Origin: Terriglobales bacterium
GTDB lineage: Bacteria; Acidobacteriota; Terriglobia; Terriglobales; Acidobacteriaceae
NCBI GenBank assembly: GCA_035457425.1
Contig: DATIBR010000117.1
Coordinates: 1 to 33,478 of the forward strand
Direction: 5' to 3'
DNA: 33,478 nt
Under the pieces are notes generated by a model. The model did not search any database, was not told the origin of the DNA, and worked only from the letters and a program-made list of their open reading frames with translations. A program made the position numbers and the translations under genes. Below are positions 2,369-8,981 of the stretch, piece after piece. Numbering within the stretch: the stretch's first letter is position 1; every line of letters begins with the position of its first letter.

Positions 2369-3073
2369 CTATTTCTCGCCCTGCACCACTTCGGCCGCAT
2401 GCGCCTGCCGGCTGCTGCTGGCGACCGCTGCCATGAACGACGCGGCGACCGCGGGAGCCGGGACAGATCCGCTCAGGATGGCCTTCTGGCGGATCTTCTT
2501 GCCGTAGATGGCGCGGGTGGAATCGTTGTCCTGCTGGATCACCGCACCGGTCAACGAGATTCCCGCGAACAGCCCTTTGGCACGGGAGTAGGTGAGGATC
2601 TCGCTGTCTGCTTTCCAGTCGGTTCCGGCAGAAGCGTGGCGTCCGACCGGTCCGGCGGCAGCCGAGGCGTCGCCGCCCACCTGGAATTTGTTCGAGAGCA
2701 TGCGCTGCATGCCCTGTTCGTTCATCACGACCATGACGAGGTCGATGCCCTGGACCCCGGCTTGCAGACCCCAGCTCCCGCCGCCGACCGAGATGAACGC
2801 CGGCGCGCTCCAGCCTGAAGCGGTGCGGCAGGTCGCGACGCCGCGGCCGTGCTTGCCGCCGAAGATGAACCCGGCCTTGATCATGCGGGGAACGACCGCG
2901 ATGCACTTGGCGTTATCGATCACTTCCTGCGGGATGCCCTTGTCGGGCGCGGCCATGATCTCGTTGAGTACGACGCCCGCGTTGGTCAGGCGCTCGGTCG
3001 AGTCCTCGCGACCGTTCGCCCAGGACAAGCTCGTCAGGGACAACGCGATCGTCAGTAGTAATAGCTTTCTCAT
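2369..3073 (-). CDS. Exported SYLF (YSC84) domain protein
   Basis: The 234-residue protein has a signal peptide (MRKLLLLTIALSLTSLSWANG). A SYLF/YSC84 domain follows, recognisable by CIAVVPRMIKAGFIFGGKHGRGV, SWGLQAGVQGIDLVMVVMN and the late SRAKGLFAGISLTGAVIQQD stretch. In eukaryotes this domain binds phosphoinositides; bacterial members are exported proteins of unclear role, probably envelope or lipid associated. An AGGAGG-like ribosome site lies 9 bases before the ATG at 3073. The Ala/Ser-rich C-terminal tail is not part of the domain. It is the first of three neighbouring genes for secreted proteins on this strand. Confidence 0.88.
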   Translation of the reverse strand: MRKLLLLTIALSLTSLSWANGREDSTERLTNAGVVLNEIMAAPDKGIPQEVIDNAKCIAVVPRMIKAGFIFGGKHGRGVATCRTASGWSAPAFISVGGGSWGLQAGVQGIDLVMVVMNEQGMQRMLSNKFQVGGDASAAAGPVGRHASAGTDWKADSEILTYSRAKGLFAGISLTGAVIQQDNDSTRAIYGKKIRQKAILSGSVPAPAVAASFMAAVASSSRQAHAAEVVQGEK

Positions 3074-3185: not shown

Positions 3186-5510
3186 TCAGCGGGAGGACTG
3201 CAGGCGTAGATCCTGATCGAGCCGGAAGGTCAGCAGCGTCTCGGCCGGGACGCGCACTTCTTTGCCGCGCGTGAGCACCTGGGTGCCCAGGCCGGCGCCC
3301 GCTCCGATCGCGGCGCCGATGGCCGCGCCCTTGCCGCCGCCCACGATGGCGCCGATCAGCGTGCCGAGTGCCGCGCCGCCGCCCACCATGATGGCCGTCT
3401 TCTTGTTCGCGCCTACGCCCTGCCCACCTTGCTGCTCCAGGTCGCCGGTGCTCACCAGGTATCTGGTTCCGGAGATCGTCACGGAAGTGACGTCGAGCAC
3501 CAGCTCCGATGCGGAAGTGATGCCGCCGCCGTCCGCGCTGCGGATGACGAGCTCGGCGTCGGAACCTTTGGGGATGGTGACCGCGCCGAAGCCGTCGACT
3601 ACGTCGGTGCTGACCACGGCGGAATACGTCTGGCCGGCAGTCGCCGTCTTGGAGTCGATCGCCTCATTGGTCCGGACTGAGAGCTCCGTCCCATTGGGAA
3701 TGGTGGTAGCGGCGCCGCTGCCGGTGTAGCGCGCATTGCCGAGCTCGAAGTCGGCACGGCATCCTTTGTCCACCCACACGCGCGAAGCGTCATAGCCCCA
3801 GCTGGAGCCCTGCACGCATTCCGAATCGCTGAGCCGGCGGCTGAGACGGATCCCGCTGCGAGTATCCGCCGCGCAATACGTCCGCCCGTAGTCGTTGGAT
3901 TGCGATTCGCAGCGGACACGGCGCGAGAGTTGGCTGGTGTTGTCGCCATATCCGAGACGCAGCGCATCGCCCTCGTTCAGCGTGACTTGGTTGATCCTGC
4001 CGTCGAGCGTGTAATCGACCCGCAGCGTCTTGCTCTGGTTGGGCGCGGGGTCGCCGCCCATGGTGTCGTTGTTCACCTGGAGGTTGAGCTGATTGCCCTG
4101 GATCCGCGAGTTCAGCCGTCCGGTGACGTCGGAGTTGCGATAGCCCGAGCCATAGGTCGCGCGGTCGATGCGCAACGTGCCGTAGTTCCCGCTGTTCTCG
4201 CCGTACCCCAACCGCAGCGTGTCGCCTTCATTGATGACCGCCTGGTTGGTGCGGCCGTTGAGCGTGTAGTCGACGCGCAGCGTCTTGCTCTGGCTGGGCG
4301 CGGGGTCACCGCCCATGGTGTTGTTGTCCACGCGCAGGTCGAGCTGGTTATTGCGGACCTGCGAGCTCAGCCGCGCGGTGACGTCGCTGCTGCGATAGCT
4401 CGAGCCATAGATGGCACGGTCGATGCGCAGCGTGCCGTAACTTCCGTTGCCCACGGACAGGCGCAGCATGTCGCCTTCGTTGATCACGACCTGGTCGCTG
4501 CGTCCGTTCACCGAATACTGCACGGTGAGGGTCTTGCTCTGGTTGGGCGCGGGATCACCGCCCATGGTGTCGTTGTTCACCCGGAGGTTGAGCTGATTGC
4601 CCTGGATCTGCGAGTTCAGCCGTCCGGTGACGTCGGAGCTGCGATAGCCTGAGCCATAGATGGCGCGGTCGATGCGCAGCGTGCCGTAGTTCCCGCTGTT
4701 CTCACCGTACCCCAACCGCAGCGTGTCGCCTTCGTTGATGACCGCCTGGTCGGTGCGGCCGTTGAGCGTGTAGTCGACGCGCAGCGTCTTGCTCTGGTTG
4801 GGCGCGGGATCACCGCCCATGGTGTCGTTGTTCACCTGGAGGTTGAGCTGATTGCCCTGGATCTGCGAGTTCAGACGTCCGGTGACGTCGGAGCTGCGAT
4901 AGCCTGAGCCATAGGTGGCGCGGTCGATACGCAGCGTGCCGTAGTTCCCGCTGTTCTCACCGTACCCCAACCGCAGCATGTCGCCTTCGTTGATCACGAC
5001 CTCGTTGGCGCGACCGTTCACCGCGTACTGCACGGTAAGGGTCTTGGATTGGTTCGGCGCCGGGTCGCCACCCATGGTGTTGTTGTCCACGCGCAGGTCG
5101 AGTTGATCGCTCCGCACCATGGAGCTCAAGCGCGAGGTGACGTCGGAGTTGCGGTAGCCCGTGCCGTAGATGGCGCGGTCGATGCGCAAGGTCCCGTAAT
5201 TCGCGGCGTTGATCTGCAGGTTGACCTGCTGACGGTCACGATAGGAGACCTGCCGGGAGCGTCCCTGGCTATCCTTCAACTGCAGGCGCAGGACCCGTCG
5301 CCCCTGTCGCCCATCGTTGGCCAGCGTGTAGCGGCTCACCCGGAACTTGAGGTTGCCGTCCTGCACCAGCGAGCGGACGCGGTCGGTGACATCCACCCAG
5401 TTATTTCCCGAGCCGTAGTCGGCGCGGACGATCTCCCAGCCCTCGGCGGCCGCCATCACGGGCAAGGCCAGCAGGCATAGCAGGACAAGAGCAACACATG
5501 ATCTCTTCAC
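3186..5510 (-). CDS. Large exported repeat protein: DUF3395-like repeats + DUF3011 + glycine zipper
   Basis: The protein is ~774 residues with a signal peptide. The GTG at 5510 was chosen because AGGAG sits 7 bases upstream. An ATG at 5525 in the same frame would add five residues. Residues ~24-104 form a divergent first unit. Residues 105-527 hold five near-identical units of 83-85 residues built on YGTLRIDRA-x-YG, DVT-x-RL, NTMGGDPAP and VINEGD-x-LRL; this resembles DUF3395, the beta-rich domain at the end of DnaJC11-type proteins. Residues ~528-595 match DUF3011 (paired Cys, SRRLSDSECVQGSSWGY). A beta-rich section follows, then a Gly/Ala zipper (about 705-748) that could insert into a membrane. 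Probably a surface or periplasmic structural protein; function inferred only. Confidence 0.85.
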   Translation of the reverse strand: MKRSCVALVLLCLLALPVMAAAEGWEIVRADYGSGNNWVDVTDRVRSLVQDGNLKFRVSRYTLANDGRQGRRVLRLQLKDSQGRSRQVSYRDRQQVNLQINAANYGTLRIDRAIYGTGYRNSDVTSRLSSMVRSDQLDLRVDNNTMGGDPAPNQSKTLTVQYAVNGRANEVVINEGDMLRLGYGENSGNYGTLRIDRATYGSGYRSSDVTGRLNSQIQGNQLNLQVNNDTMGGDPAPNQSKTLRVDYTLNGRTDQAVINEGDTLRLGYGENSGNYGTLRIDRAIYGSGYRSSDVTGRLNSQIQGNQLNLRVNNDTMGGDPAPNQSKTLTVQYSVNGRSDQVVINEGDMLRLSVGNGSYGTLRIDRAIYGSSYRSSDVTARLSSQVRNNQLDLRVDNNTMGGDPAPSQSKTLRVDYTLNGRTNQAVINEGDTLRLGYGENSGNYGTLRIDRATYGSGYRNSDVTGRLNSRIQGNQLNLQVNNDTMGGDPAPNQSKTLRVDYTLDGRINQVTLNEGDALRLGYGDNTSQLSRRVRCESQSNDYGRTYCAADTRSGIRLSRRLSDSECVQGSSWGYDASRVWVDKGCRADFELGNARYTGSGAATTIPNGTELSVRTNEAIDSKTATAGQTYSAVVSTDVVDGFGAVTIPKGSDAELVIRSADGGGITSASELVLDVTSVTISGTRYLVSTGDLEQQGGQGVGANKKTAIMVGGGAALGTLIGAIVGGGKGAAIGAAIGAGAGLGTQVLTRGKEVRVPAETLLTFRLDQDLRLQSSR
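3930..5198 (-). repeat. Five in-frame tandem repeats of 249-255 bp inside the exported repeat gene
   Basis: Units run 5198-4944, 4943-4689, 4688-4440, 4439-4185 and 4184-3930 in reading direction. Four are 255 bp and the third is 249 bp because its linker is shortened to SVGNGS. Units 2, 3 and 5 share the GRLNS-x-IQGNQLNL variant. Units 1 and 4 share the DLRVDNNTMGG variant. Long stretches are identical at DNA level, which suggests recent unequal crossing-over or gene conversion. All indels keep frame, so selection acts on the protein. Confidence 0.9.
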
Positions 5511-6409: not shown

Positions 6410-7063
6410 ATGAGACTCTTCAACAGGTTGTTCACCATTGTCTGCATCGTCGCCCTTTGCCTTGCCGTTCTGCCGGTCGCCTCGGCTTCCGAGTGGAACC
6501 GCAAGACCATCGTCACCTTCAGCGGCCCGGTCGAAGTTCCTGGCGTGGGCGCGCAGGTGCTGCCTGCCGGCACGTACGTCTTCAAGATCATGGACTCGCT
6601 CTCGGACCGCCACATCGTCCAGATCTTCAACGAGCGCGAAGACCACCTCTACACCACCATCCTGGCGATCCCGAACTTCCGTCTGCAGTCGACTGACAAG
6701 ACGGTCATGACGTTCAAGGAGCGCGCGGAAGGCCAGCCCCAGGCGATCCGTGCATGGTTCTATCCCGGCCGTCAATGGGGTGAGGAATTCGTGTATCCCA
6801 AGGCGAAGGCGCTCGAGCTCGCGCGAGTCAGCAACGAGCCGGTGCTCTACGCCGAGGCCTCCAGCATCGAGGACCTCAGGACCGTGCCGGTCGAAGCGGT
6901 GAAGCCGACCGGAGAACCGGTCGCGATCGCTGAAGTCGTTCAGCCGCCGCCGATGGAAACAGCCGAGGCTCTGCCGCACACGGCAAGCTATTTGCCGCTG
7001 CTGGCTCTGCTCGGGCTGCTCTCGATGGGCGCGTCTGGCCTGATCAGGAAGTACTCCGCCTAA
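6410..7063 (+). CDS. Exported protein with LPHTA sorting signal (predicted sortase substrate)
   Basis: The 217-residue protein has a signal peptide (1-27, cleavage after ASA). A ~130-residue beta-rich domain opens WNRKTIVTFSGPVEVPG and LPAGTYVFKI. A Pro/Glu-rich linker ends in the sorting motif LPHTA (188-192), followed by a hydrophobic segment (195-210) and the short basic end IRKYSA. The globular part resembles small acidobacterial exported proteins that begin KTxVTFSxPVxVPG. The C-terminal triad of motif, membrane helix and basic residues is the classic sortase substrate layout. A GAGAAGG ribosome site precedes the ATG by 5 bases. It is upstream of the VWFA and sortase genes on the same strand, so it is the natural substrate candidate. 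The acceptor is unknown. Confidence 0.85.
   Translation: MRLFNRLFTIVCIVALCLAVLPVASASEWNRKTIVTFSGPVEVPGVGAQVLPAGTYVFKIMDSLSDRHIVQIFNEREDHLYTTILAIPNFRLQSTDKTVMTFKERAEGQPQAIRAWFYPGRQWGEEFVYPKAKALELARVSNEPVLYAEASSIEDLRTVPVEAVKPTGEPVAIAEVVQPPPMETAEALPHTASYLPLLALLGLLSMGASGLIRKYSA
6971..7060 (+). other. LPxTA cell-surface sorting signal (LPHTA + TM + basic tail)
   Basis: The codons for LPHTAS are followed at once by YLPLLALLGLLSMGASGL and RK. The same arrangement, LPQTAS-PLPLIGLLG with an RKRK end, closes the gene at 23681-23977. The shared LPxTAS-x-LPL-x2-LLG pattern goes beyond the bare motif and points to one sorting enzyme. Confidence 0.8.
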
Positions 7064-7222
7064 GGGCACTCGCGGGGTCGACTCTGCGGCGTGAGCGGTG
7101 AACATCGCTCAAGCAGGCTGTACGCTTCCGGAAAACAAGCCGGGGCGTGCAGCCTTCGCAGCGTTTCAGCGGCCCGGGCCATCGTTCTCCGCGTCATCGT
7201 CTAGCCGACGGACTGAGGTTGC

Positions 7223-8356
7223 ATGTTCGCGATCCGTGAATACGCTGCTGTCCTTTCCATGCTTCTCATCGCGGGAGCGCTGCTGGCCGTCGCCGCACTG
7301 CTGCTCTGGGGTATCGTGTATCTACTGAAGACAGCCGCCACGCACGCCGGACGAGCGGTAGCAGCCTCGCGCGCGGTTCCCACGCGCGCCGTTGCCCTGG
7401 TCCCGATCCTCTGCGTCCTGGCACTCGCCTTCTTCGTGCTCCATCCCGTGGCCGATCGCGCTCAACAGATCGCCGCGGCCCCTCCGGACGACTACACCAT
7501 CAACGTGAGCGTGAACGAGGTCGTGTTGCACGCGACCGTGCGCAACCACAAAGGCGCCCCGGTGGCTGGGCTCGCGCGAAATGACTTCCAGATCCTCGAG
7601 GACGGCGTCCCGCAGCCCATCCGGCACTTCGGGCAAGCCGACATCCCGGTCACCGTCGGACTGGTGATCGATAACAGCGGCAGCATGCGGCCGAGGCGGG
7701 CGGAGGTGGTGGCCGCAGCCCTCGCTTTCGCGGCCTCCAGCAATCCGCAGGACGAGATCTTCGTGGTCAACTTCAACGAACACGTCCGCTTCGGCCTGCC
7801 GCGCGAGATCCCGTTCACCGACGAGCCCGCCCGGCTGAGAGCAGCCCTCGGCACCGTCAAGAGCGACGGCAAGACCGCGCTCTATGATGCCGTGGTGGCG
7901 GCGCTCGAGCATCTGAAGCAGGGCAACCGCGACAAGAAGGTGCTGATCGTGGTCAGCGACGGCGCCGACAACGCCAGCACGCACACCAAGGCGCAGATGC
8001 TGGAGCTCGCGACCCGCTCCGACGCCATCCTCTATGGCGTCGGGCTCTACGAGCCGGACGACCCCGACCGCAATCCCCACGTCGTGAAAGAACTCGCGCG
8101 GGTCGGCGGCGGCGAAGCGTACTTCCCGCGCGAGCTGCGCGATGTGGTTCCGACCTGCGAGCGTATCGCGCATGCCATCCGGAACCAGTACACCCTCACC
8201 TACGTTCCCACCAACCAGAAGAAGGACGGCGCGTACCGCACCATCCAGGTACAGGTGACGCCCGCCACCCGGGACCTGACGGTGATCACGCGACGCGGCT
8301 ACGTCGCGCCGTCCGAGGCTGCGCCGGGCGCCGGCAAGCCGCCGGCTCGGGACTGA
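7223..8356 (+). CDS. Membrane-anchored VWFA domain protein (acidobacterial VWFA type)
   Basis: The 377-residue protein has two N-terminal membrane helices (about 9-35 and 56-76). A beta-rich Ig-like stretch follows (VNEVVLHATVRNHKGAPVAGL, then FQILEDGVPQPI). This stretch marks the VWFA-related acidobacterial family (TIGR03436-like). The VWA domain (about 143-330) has a full metal site: D150-x-S152-x-S154, T218 and D246. VWA domains bind protein ligands through the metal. There is no C-terminal sorting motif. A TGAGG ribosome site lies 4 bases before the ATG. The stop codon is one base from the sortase ATG, so the two are translationally coupled. It may present or receive substrates for the sortase; this is inference. 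Confidence 0.9.
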   Translation: MFAIREYAAVLSMLLIAGALLAVAALLLWGIVYLLKTAATHAGRAVAASRAVPTRAVALVPILCVLALAFFVLHPVADRAQQIAAAPPDDYTINVSVNEVVLHATVRNHKGAPVAGLARNDFQILEDGVPQPIRHFGQADIPVTVGLVIDNSGSMRPRRAEVVAAALAFAASSNPQDEIFVVNFNEHVRFGLPREIPFTDEPARLRAALGTVKSDGKTALYDAVVAALEHLKQGNRDKKVLIVVSDGADNASTHTKAQMLELATRSDAILYGVGLYEPDDPDRNPHVVKELARVGGGEAYFPRELRDVVPTCERIAHAIRNQYTLTYVPTNQKKDGAYRTIQVQVTPATRDLTVITRRGYVAPSEAAPGAGKPPARD

Positions 8357-8357
8357 C

Positions 8358-8981
8358 ATGGCTTGGATCACTCCTCGCGCGCGGGGCCCCCGGCTGCGAT
8401 GGATGCGCTGGCCCTTCCTCGCGCTGGGGCTGCTCTGCCTCGGCTACGTCGGATTCGCGTTGCTGGATGCCGAAGCCTTTCAGGCGTACGAGAATTGGCG
8501 CCTTGCGCGCGCTGCGAAGAACTCCCCGGTGACGGCGCCCTCCCCGCCGCCCTCGTCGACACCCCTCGTCGCCACCCGCCGGACCGCCGCGCCCGGGGCG
8601 ACGCTTGGGCGCATCGAGATCGCACGCATCGGCGTCGACTCCATCATCGTAGAAGGCACCGACAGCCGCAGCTTGCGCCGCGCGGTCGGTCACGTCAATG
8701 GCACGGCGTTCCCCGGCGAGCATGGCAACACCGCGATCGCCGGGCACCGCGACACGTTCTTCCGGGGATTGCGCGACCTGCGCCAGAGCGACGAGATCAC
8801 CGTGACCACGCTGGAAGGGATTTATCGCTATCGAGTCGACTCGATGACGGTCGTGGCCGGCGACGATACTGCCGTGCTGAACGATTCGGCCGGCTCGACC
8901 CTCACGCTGGTGACCTGTTATCCGTTCTCCTACGTGGGCCCGGCGCCGCAGCGGTTCGTCGTGCGCGCCCATCTGGACTGA
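8358..8981 (+). CDS. Class D-type sortase
   Basis: The 207-residue protein has an N-terminal membrane anchor (about 17-36), a Pro/Ser-rich linker (55-78) and a sortase domain from LGRIEIARIGVDSIIVEG. All catalytic residues are present: His130 in IAGHRDTFFRGLRDL, Cys187 in TLVTCYPF and Arg199 in PAPQRFVVRA. The HRDTFFRGL and TCYPFSYVGPAP context fits the class D group, whose Bacillus members process LPNTA-like signals. The enzyme would cut between Thr and Ala of LPxTA and join the protein to an amine acceptor outside the inner membrane. The upstream gene ends in LPHTA. In a diderm the acceptor is unknown. No strong ribosome site is seen, consistent with coupling to the VWFA gene. Confidence 0.93.
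   Translation: MAWITPRARGPRLRWMRWPFLALGLLCLGYVGFALLDAEAFQAYENWRLARAAKNSPVTAPSPPPSSTPLVATRRTAAPGATLGRIEIARIGVDSIIVEGTDSRSLRRAVGHVNGTAFPGEHGNTAIAGHRDTFFRGLRDLRQSDEITVTTLEGIYRYRVDSMTVVAGDDTAVLNDSAGSTLTLVTCYPFSYVGPAPQRFVVRAHLD

Follow-up and report, generated by a model that had tools for sequence, protein, structure and literature searches.

DUF3395 is known chiefly from DNAJC11 and its function is obscure; the locus raises the question of what a tandem array of such units does in a bacterial protein that appears to be exported. The array gene lies in the window, the whole 33,478-nt stretch of DNA that was analysed, which belongs to an acidobacterial draft genome of 3.14 Mb in 192 contigs whose closest named relatives are Acidobacteriales. 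The 908-aa open frame containing the array is too long at its 5′ end, and translation likely begins at GTG 5510 rather than at the ATG of that frame, because GAGGAG lies 7 nt upstream of the GTG and the starts of the orthologues (ATG, GTG or TTG) align there. The features of the gene are as follows.

3186-5510, minus strand, whole gene: 774 aa from GTG 5510 (779 aa from ATG 5525), start at GTG 5510 likely
5442-5510, minus strand, N-terminal Sec-type signal peptide, KRSCVALVLLCLLALPVMAAA-E, judged by eye
5199-5441, minus strand, unit 0: divergent N-terminal unit, predicted permuted RBL-like, with a degenerate putative sugar site (Glu to Asp, Lys to Arg)
4944-5198, minus strand, unit 1: 85 residues, first half of 1,4 type and second half of 1,3 type
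4689-4943, minus strand, unit 2: 85 residues, first half of 2,3,5 type and second half of 2,4 type; the sugar site is predicted at the codons Tyr 4911-4913, Asn74-equivalent 4824-4826, Asp 4809-4811, Lys 4788-4790 and Glu 4731-4733
4440-4688, minus strand, unit 3: 83 residues, recombinant, its first half matching unit 2 at 97% identity and its second half closest to unit 1
4185-4439, minus strand, unit 4: 85 residues, recombinant, first half with the diagnostic sites of unit 1 and second half 97% identical to unit 2
3936-4184, minus strand, unit 5: 83 residues, the last unit, with its own C-terminal hairpin (LNEGDALRL) at the end
3720-3917, minus strand, DUF3011 domain (PF11218), the sole match within this genome
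3195-3710, minus strand, C-terminal module that recurs in numerous other acidobacterial proteins; its glycine-zipper-like stretch lies at 3285-3401

Five tandem units of 83-85 residues had been proposed from the sequence alone, and they were confirmed on the minus strand from 5198 to 3936 (85, 85, 83, 85 and 83 residues). A sixth, unit 0 at 5441-5199, had been missed; it shares approximately 30% identity with the others and is recovered by the unit profile. Apparent export agrees with the signal peptide recognised by eye, and the proposed junction with DUF3011 was borne out by PF11218 (E 7.4e-16; 59.1 and 60.5 bits, above the 25-bit cut-off). The glycine zipper stood in part, as the stretch matched PF13441 at E 6.1e-5 but scored under the cut-off of that family. 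A search of the C-terminal module against solved structures returned nothing convincing. Genomes of the family each carry several copies of this glycine-zipper module, in some cases about ten or more, in frames of varied length. Another genome (G019:C8:127152-128036) carries a 463-aa frame in which four tandem stretches match the query over its DUF3011 part (residues 529-609).

Directly downstream of the array gene, at 2369-3073 on the minus strand, is a gene for a secreted-looking Ysc84-domain protein (PF04366, E 5.6e-39). The plus strand at 6410-8981 carries what is likely a sortase cassette, in a Gram-negative phylum.

6410-7063, plus strand, protein ending in LPHTA, a hydrophobic stretch and RK
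7223-8356, plus strand, acidobacterial VWFA protein
8358-8981, plus strand, class D-like sortase

As the sequence-only reading had suggested, the units belong to DUF3395/DnaJ-like_C11_C (PF11875). The whole protein matched this family at E 3.9e-37 (127.4 bits), single units lay close to its 27.1-bit cut-off (unit 2 alone, 27.4 bits), and 18 of 21 units were matched at E up to 1 (best, 1.4e-10). The match above the Pfam cut-off runs through the core and the C-terminal hairpin of the unit. Because a profile search found no J domain in it, the protein is a member of the DUF3395 domain family and not a DNAJC11. Unlike eukaryotic DNAJC11, which is mitochondrial and carries the domain in one copy, it is apparently exported, bears the domain in tandem and is joined to DUF3011 and the glycine-zipper module.

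A second family was matched at lower scores. RBL/SUEL domains are the sugar-binding lectin domains of fish eggs and animal latrophilin receptors, and the corresponding profile, PF02140 (rhamnose/galactose-binding SUEL lectin), matched 10 of 21 units (best E 0.0067), the next unrelated family matching 3 of 21. Unit 2 alone scored 13.5-14.7 bits, below the single-domain cut-off of 31.4 bits, and the whole-protein score of 44.6 bits is a sum over repeats in which no single stretch passes. In hhalign, the unit profile aligned to the RBL profile with a probability of 81% (P 1.3e-5) and a score of 33, while 300 column shuffles gave a mean of 9.7 (SD 2.1) and a maximum of 18.6. The protein sequence alone gave no match to solved structures. 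In the PDB profile search, the two best matches, designed dTor repeats, were set aside as summed weak matches; after these came the lectin domain of latrophilin-like protein 1 (E 0.18).

The relationship became clear when the structure of the unit was predicted in two phases, from shallow alignments (17-21 rows). In the DUF3395-order model, composed of a unit and both flanking hairpins, the C-terminal hairpin was packed and the N-terminal hairpin was disordered. The best VIA-align matches of this model were the LAT-1 lectin (Z 5.9, 3.0 Å, 64 aligned) and the latrophilin-1 lectin (Z 4.8), in alignments to lectins that covered residues 14-84 and left the hairpin out. This packing and the hairpin-less alignments suggested a circular permutation, which was then tested with an RBL-order model, a natural segment of the window consisting of the unit 1 hairpin and the unit 2 core. 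The RBL-order model had a mean pLDDT of 86.9, and RBL-family entries took all of the first 13 places in Foldseek (E 7e-4 to 0.05, probability 1.00, TM to query at most 0.82). The DUF3395-order model gave nothing under E 0.8 in Foldseek, so that only the re-phased segment was clear. In VIA-align, the RBL-order model matched salmon lectin CSL3 with Z 11.5 (1.7 Å, 78 aligned, 32% identity), the LAT-1 lectin with Z 11.5, latrophilins with Z 10.1-11.3 and sea-urchin SUL-I with Z 10.9; altogether, ten RBL entries shared the sandwich fold of this predicted model at Z 10.1-11.5 and rmsd 1.6-2.0 Å over 78-81 residues. Plasmodium P113 and RIPR, the C-terminal domain of rice beta-galactosidase and an ASFV protein followed at Z 8.3 to 6.5, and others from Z 4.8.

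These models make it well supported that each repeat is a circularly permuted RBL/SUEL domain, in which the beta1-beta2 hairpin, placed first in the classical RBL domain, would lie at the C-terminus of the bacterial unit. With the upstream strand included, the profile score rose very little (31.6 without it, 33.0 with it); the permutation therefore rests on structure prediction and domain boundaries rather than on sequence score. The boundaries come from isolated single domains in other proteins, in which the core and downstream hairpin matched the full model, and the upstream-hairpin model was matched only from approximately position 20. As lone domains carry the hairpin downstream, the permuted order appears natural and not a product of how the array is cut.

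The units resemble RBLs (CSL3, SUL-I, SUEL) and latrophilin lectins of PF02140 in predicted fold (Z 10-11.5), in tandem repetition, in the motifs A-x-Y-G and D-P-x5-K-x-L-x-V-x-Y, and in the sugar-contact residues Glu, Tyr, Asp and Lys. They differ from RBLs in their permuted order with a C-terminal beta1-beta2 hairpin and in a shorter loop 1. From the RBL motifs YGR and DPC, together with the residues that follow, YG, DP, K and L are kept in place, and the Arg and Cys are not; whereas RBLs have eight conserved cysteines forming four disulphides, the six bacterial units have none. A stretch similar to the classical SUEL lectin exists in another bacterial protein, the cell-surface protein RemA of Flavobacterium johnsoniae (solved chain 8gl6_D). 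It was found at E 1.5e-6 with a classical sea-urchin lectin query, which itself matched solved RBLs at E 1.6e-61. A search with the unit profile, taken to E 10, did not recover it.

Whether the predicted fold could bind sugar was considered from residues known in two lectins. Rhamnose is contacted in CSL3 by Glu7, Tyr27, Asn74, Asp79, Lys86 and the main chain of Gly83 (PMC3269628), and the contacts in latrophilin-1 are Glu42 in the beta1-beta2 turn, Tyr63, Lys120 and Gly117 (PMC2430599). The Glu, Tyr and Lys equivalents are thus contacts in both lectins, and the Asp equivalent in CSL3 only. Every one of the five inner units has all four bacterial counterparts: Glu in the NEGD turn of the hairpin, Tyr in A-x-YG, and Asp and Lys within DPxxxxxK. 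Among 93 bacterial domains (effective number, 40), Glu was conserved in 89%, Tyr in 92%, Asp in 96% and Lys in 92%, ranking 10, 8, 5 and 11, respectively, among 77 positions; the Gly83 position was Gly in 62% of domains. The Asn74 equivalent was poorly conserved (rank 68 of 77); units 1 and 4 have Asn there and units 2, 3 and 5 have Asp, so that the two unit variants differ here, among other positions. When all five side-chain positions were taken together, the conservation test gave only p 0.026. Because Lys120 also stabilises the latrophilin-1 fold (PMC2430599), conservation of the Lys need not mean binding. Unit 0 has Asp at the Glu position and Arg at the Lys position. The changes E42D and K120R strongly reduced or abolished binding by latrophilin-1 (PMC2430599), and the sugar site of unit 0 is predicted to be lost.

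We propose, with a probability of roughly 0.6, that the gene encodes a secreted, multivalent glycan-binding protein built of circularly permuted RBL domains. Each of the five inner units would bind rhamnose- or galactose-like sugars weakly, and their arrangement in tandem would provide avidity. Unit 0, with its site presumably lost, would probably serve as a structural cap, and attachment of the exported array to the cell envelope would fall to DUF3011 and the glycine-zipper module. There, the array may bind a rhamnose- or galactose-rich polysaccharide in adhesion, matrix building or substrate capture. The computations show the units, their mosaic, the copy-number differences between species, the fold and the permutation; that the array binds sugar, which sugar it binds, that it sits at the envelope and that copy number affects avidity are inferred.

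The main rival to a glycan-binding array is the same permuted RBL fold acting as a rigid stalk or a protein-protein interaction surface, which we consider unlikely but deserving of weight. In several receptors, RBL domains without the sugar residues are believed to have proteins as ligands (PMC2430599), protein interaction has been discussed as the role of the DNAJC11 domain, and both the variability of the Asn74 equivalent and the loss of the site in unit 0 would suit such a surface. It is opposed by the four sugar-contact residues (Glu, Tyr, Asp and Lys), which every inner unit has kept and which are 89-96% conserved in the 93 domains, and by the presence of the domain inside an enzyme that acts on carbohydrate: in L044, and also in L045, a GH106 alpha-L-rhamnosidase has one DUF3395-type domain (residues 504-582 of the L044 open frame) separating its catalytic part from its jelly-roll part. 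This location fits a carbohydrate-binding role, although the Glu position is Asp in that domain. One unit is also found in a Tat-type Streptomyces protein with weak similarity to kojibiose hydrolase, adjoining a GH97 gene, and it likewise has Asp at the Glu position. In both proteins, the Asp counts against binding, because such a change harms binding by latrophilin-1. A paper on ulvan-binding domains was discarded as not relevant, since it concerns a ricin-like domain.

The second part of the question is how the array arose. TRF reported the array with a score of 1539, a period of 255 and 4.8 copies. The units had been described as nearly identical and recently homogenised, which overstated the case: units 1-5 share 70-87% protein identity and 72-89% DNA identity, and dS between units is 0.23-0.82. 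This dS range shows that most homogenisation of this array was not very recent and that much of it is old, and the dN/dS of 0.19-0.47 shows units evolving under purifying selection. The proposed split of units 1 and 4 against 2, 3 and 5 exists but is confined to the first unit half, at about codons 22-40; the second half (codons 53-74) splits mainly into 1,3 versus 2,4,5. Across 30 two-versus-three sites, 12 pattern changes were observed versus 22.8 expected, and none of 20,000 permutations gave a number as low. This incongruence between unit halves is the actual recombination signal. The switch lies near codons 45-53 of the unit, within the conserved GGDPAPNQSKTL block; units 2 and 3 are 97% identical over codons 1-44 and 75% over codons 53-76, and units 2 and 4 are 82% and 97% identical over the same segments.

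Orthologues that keep the same five units with the same variants would speak for an old, fixed array; none was found among other species, in which the inner units range from two to five. In the same architecture there are five inner units in the window, four in each of two other loci (G023 and L036), three in L037, two in G241 and five in G295. Another orthologue (L038, 5001-6835) has three inner units and a broken frame, the break lying between two units and perhaps reflecting decay or an assembly error. The five inner units of the G295 array (L060, G295:C162:40208-41689) share 90-96% DNA and 91-99% protein identity, and this array is homogenised more recently than that of the window. In phylogenetic trees, the inner units tended to cluster by protein (supports of 100/98 for G295, and 82/78 and 92/90 in the two trees for the window protein, several supports being modest), and unit 0 formed its own clade across proteins (100/99 and 100/100 in the two trees). 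Unit 0 is thus an old, fixed element, and turnover affects the inner array.

The mosaic, the copy-number differences between species and the clustering of inner units by protein agree with the unequal crossing-over or gene conversion proposed earlier, and recombinational turnover of the inner array is supported by these comparisons. The inner array would grow, shrink and reshuffle by either process, with the switch at the conserved GGDPAPNQSKTL. That the mosaic is instead an assembly artefact, from repeats collapsed or mis-joined in a draft contig, is conceivable in a 192-contig genome with similar units, but highly improbable, as the units are 11-28% apart in DNA, well beyond usual collapse, and independent genomes carry the same architecture with different copy number.

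Of 200 genomes in the family, 40 had a match to the unit profile, against only 5 of 199 across the phylum, where PF11875 had a match in this genome only. A genome search with PF02140 gave no match, and its controls gave none either. The unit profile also found the domain on Mitsuaria and Streptomyces plasmids, and it had no match in the phages searched. One other genome of the genus (G001, 90% complete) gave no match, and the domain is thus an accessory trait.

A DnaJC11-type, co-chaperone-related domain with an Hsp40-C-terminal-like beta fold is the least probable reading of the repeats. The Pfam name and the PF11875 match would point to it, as would PMC4128653, in which the C-terminal domain of yeast Ydj1 was the template for a model of the mouse domain. 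Against it stand the missing J domain, the apparent export of the protein and fold searches that placed RBL lectins first, with no Hsp40 C-terminal domain among the matches listed.

Five open-access papers naming DUF3395 concern, by title, mostly eukaryotic J-proteins, and in the open-access literature consulted no statement was found linking DUF3395 or DNAJC11 to a lectin domain, or the RBL fold to circular permutation. The circular permutation linking DUF3395 to the RBL fold thus appears to be new; tandem lectin domains and repeat turnover are of already known kinds. We lean towards the wider view that the entire DUF3395 family, with the C-terminal domain of mitochondrial DNAJC11 among its members, consists of circularly permuted RBL domains, that the bacterial tandem arrays are a recombining lectin of variable valency, and that eukaryotes took the fold inside the cell; the link to human DNAJC11 rests on Pfam family membership. 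In mice, a DNAJC11 splicing mutation altering the C-terminal part leads to neuromuscular disease (PMC4128653). The placement of the units as RBL permutants would give a concrete binding-site hypothesis for the bacterial proteins and a new structural frame for DNAJC11. The domain, which also occurs inside an alpha-L-rhamnosidase, may be a carbohydrate-binding module of soil bacteria, and the array illustrates how recombination can alter the valency of a lectin.
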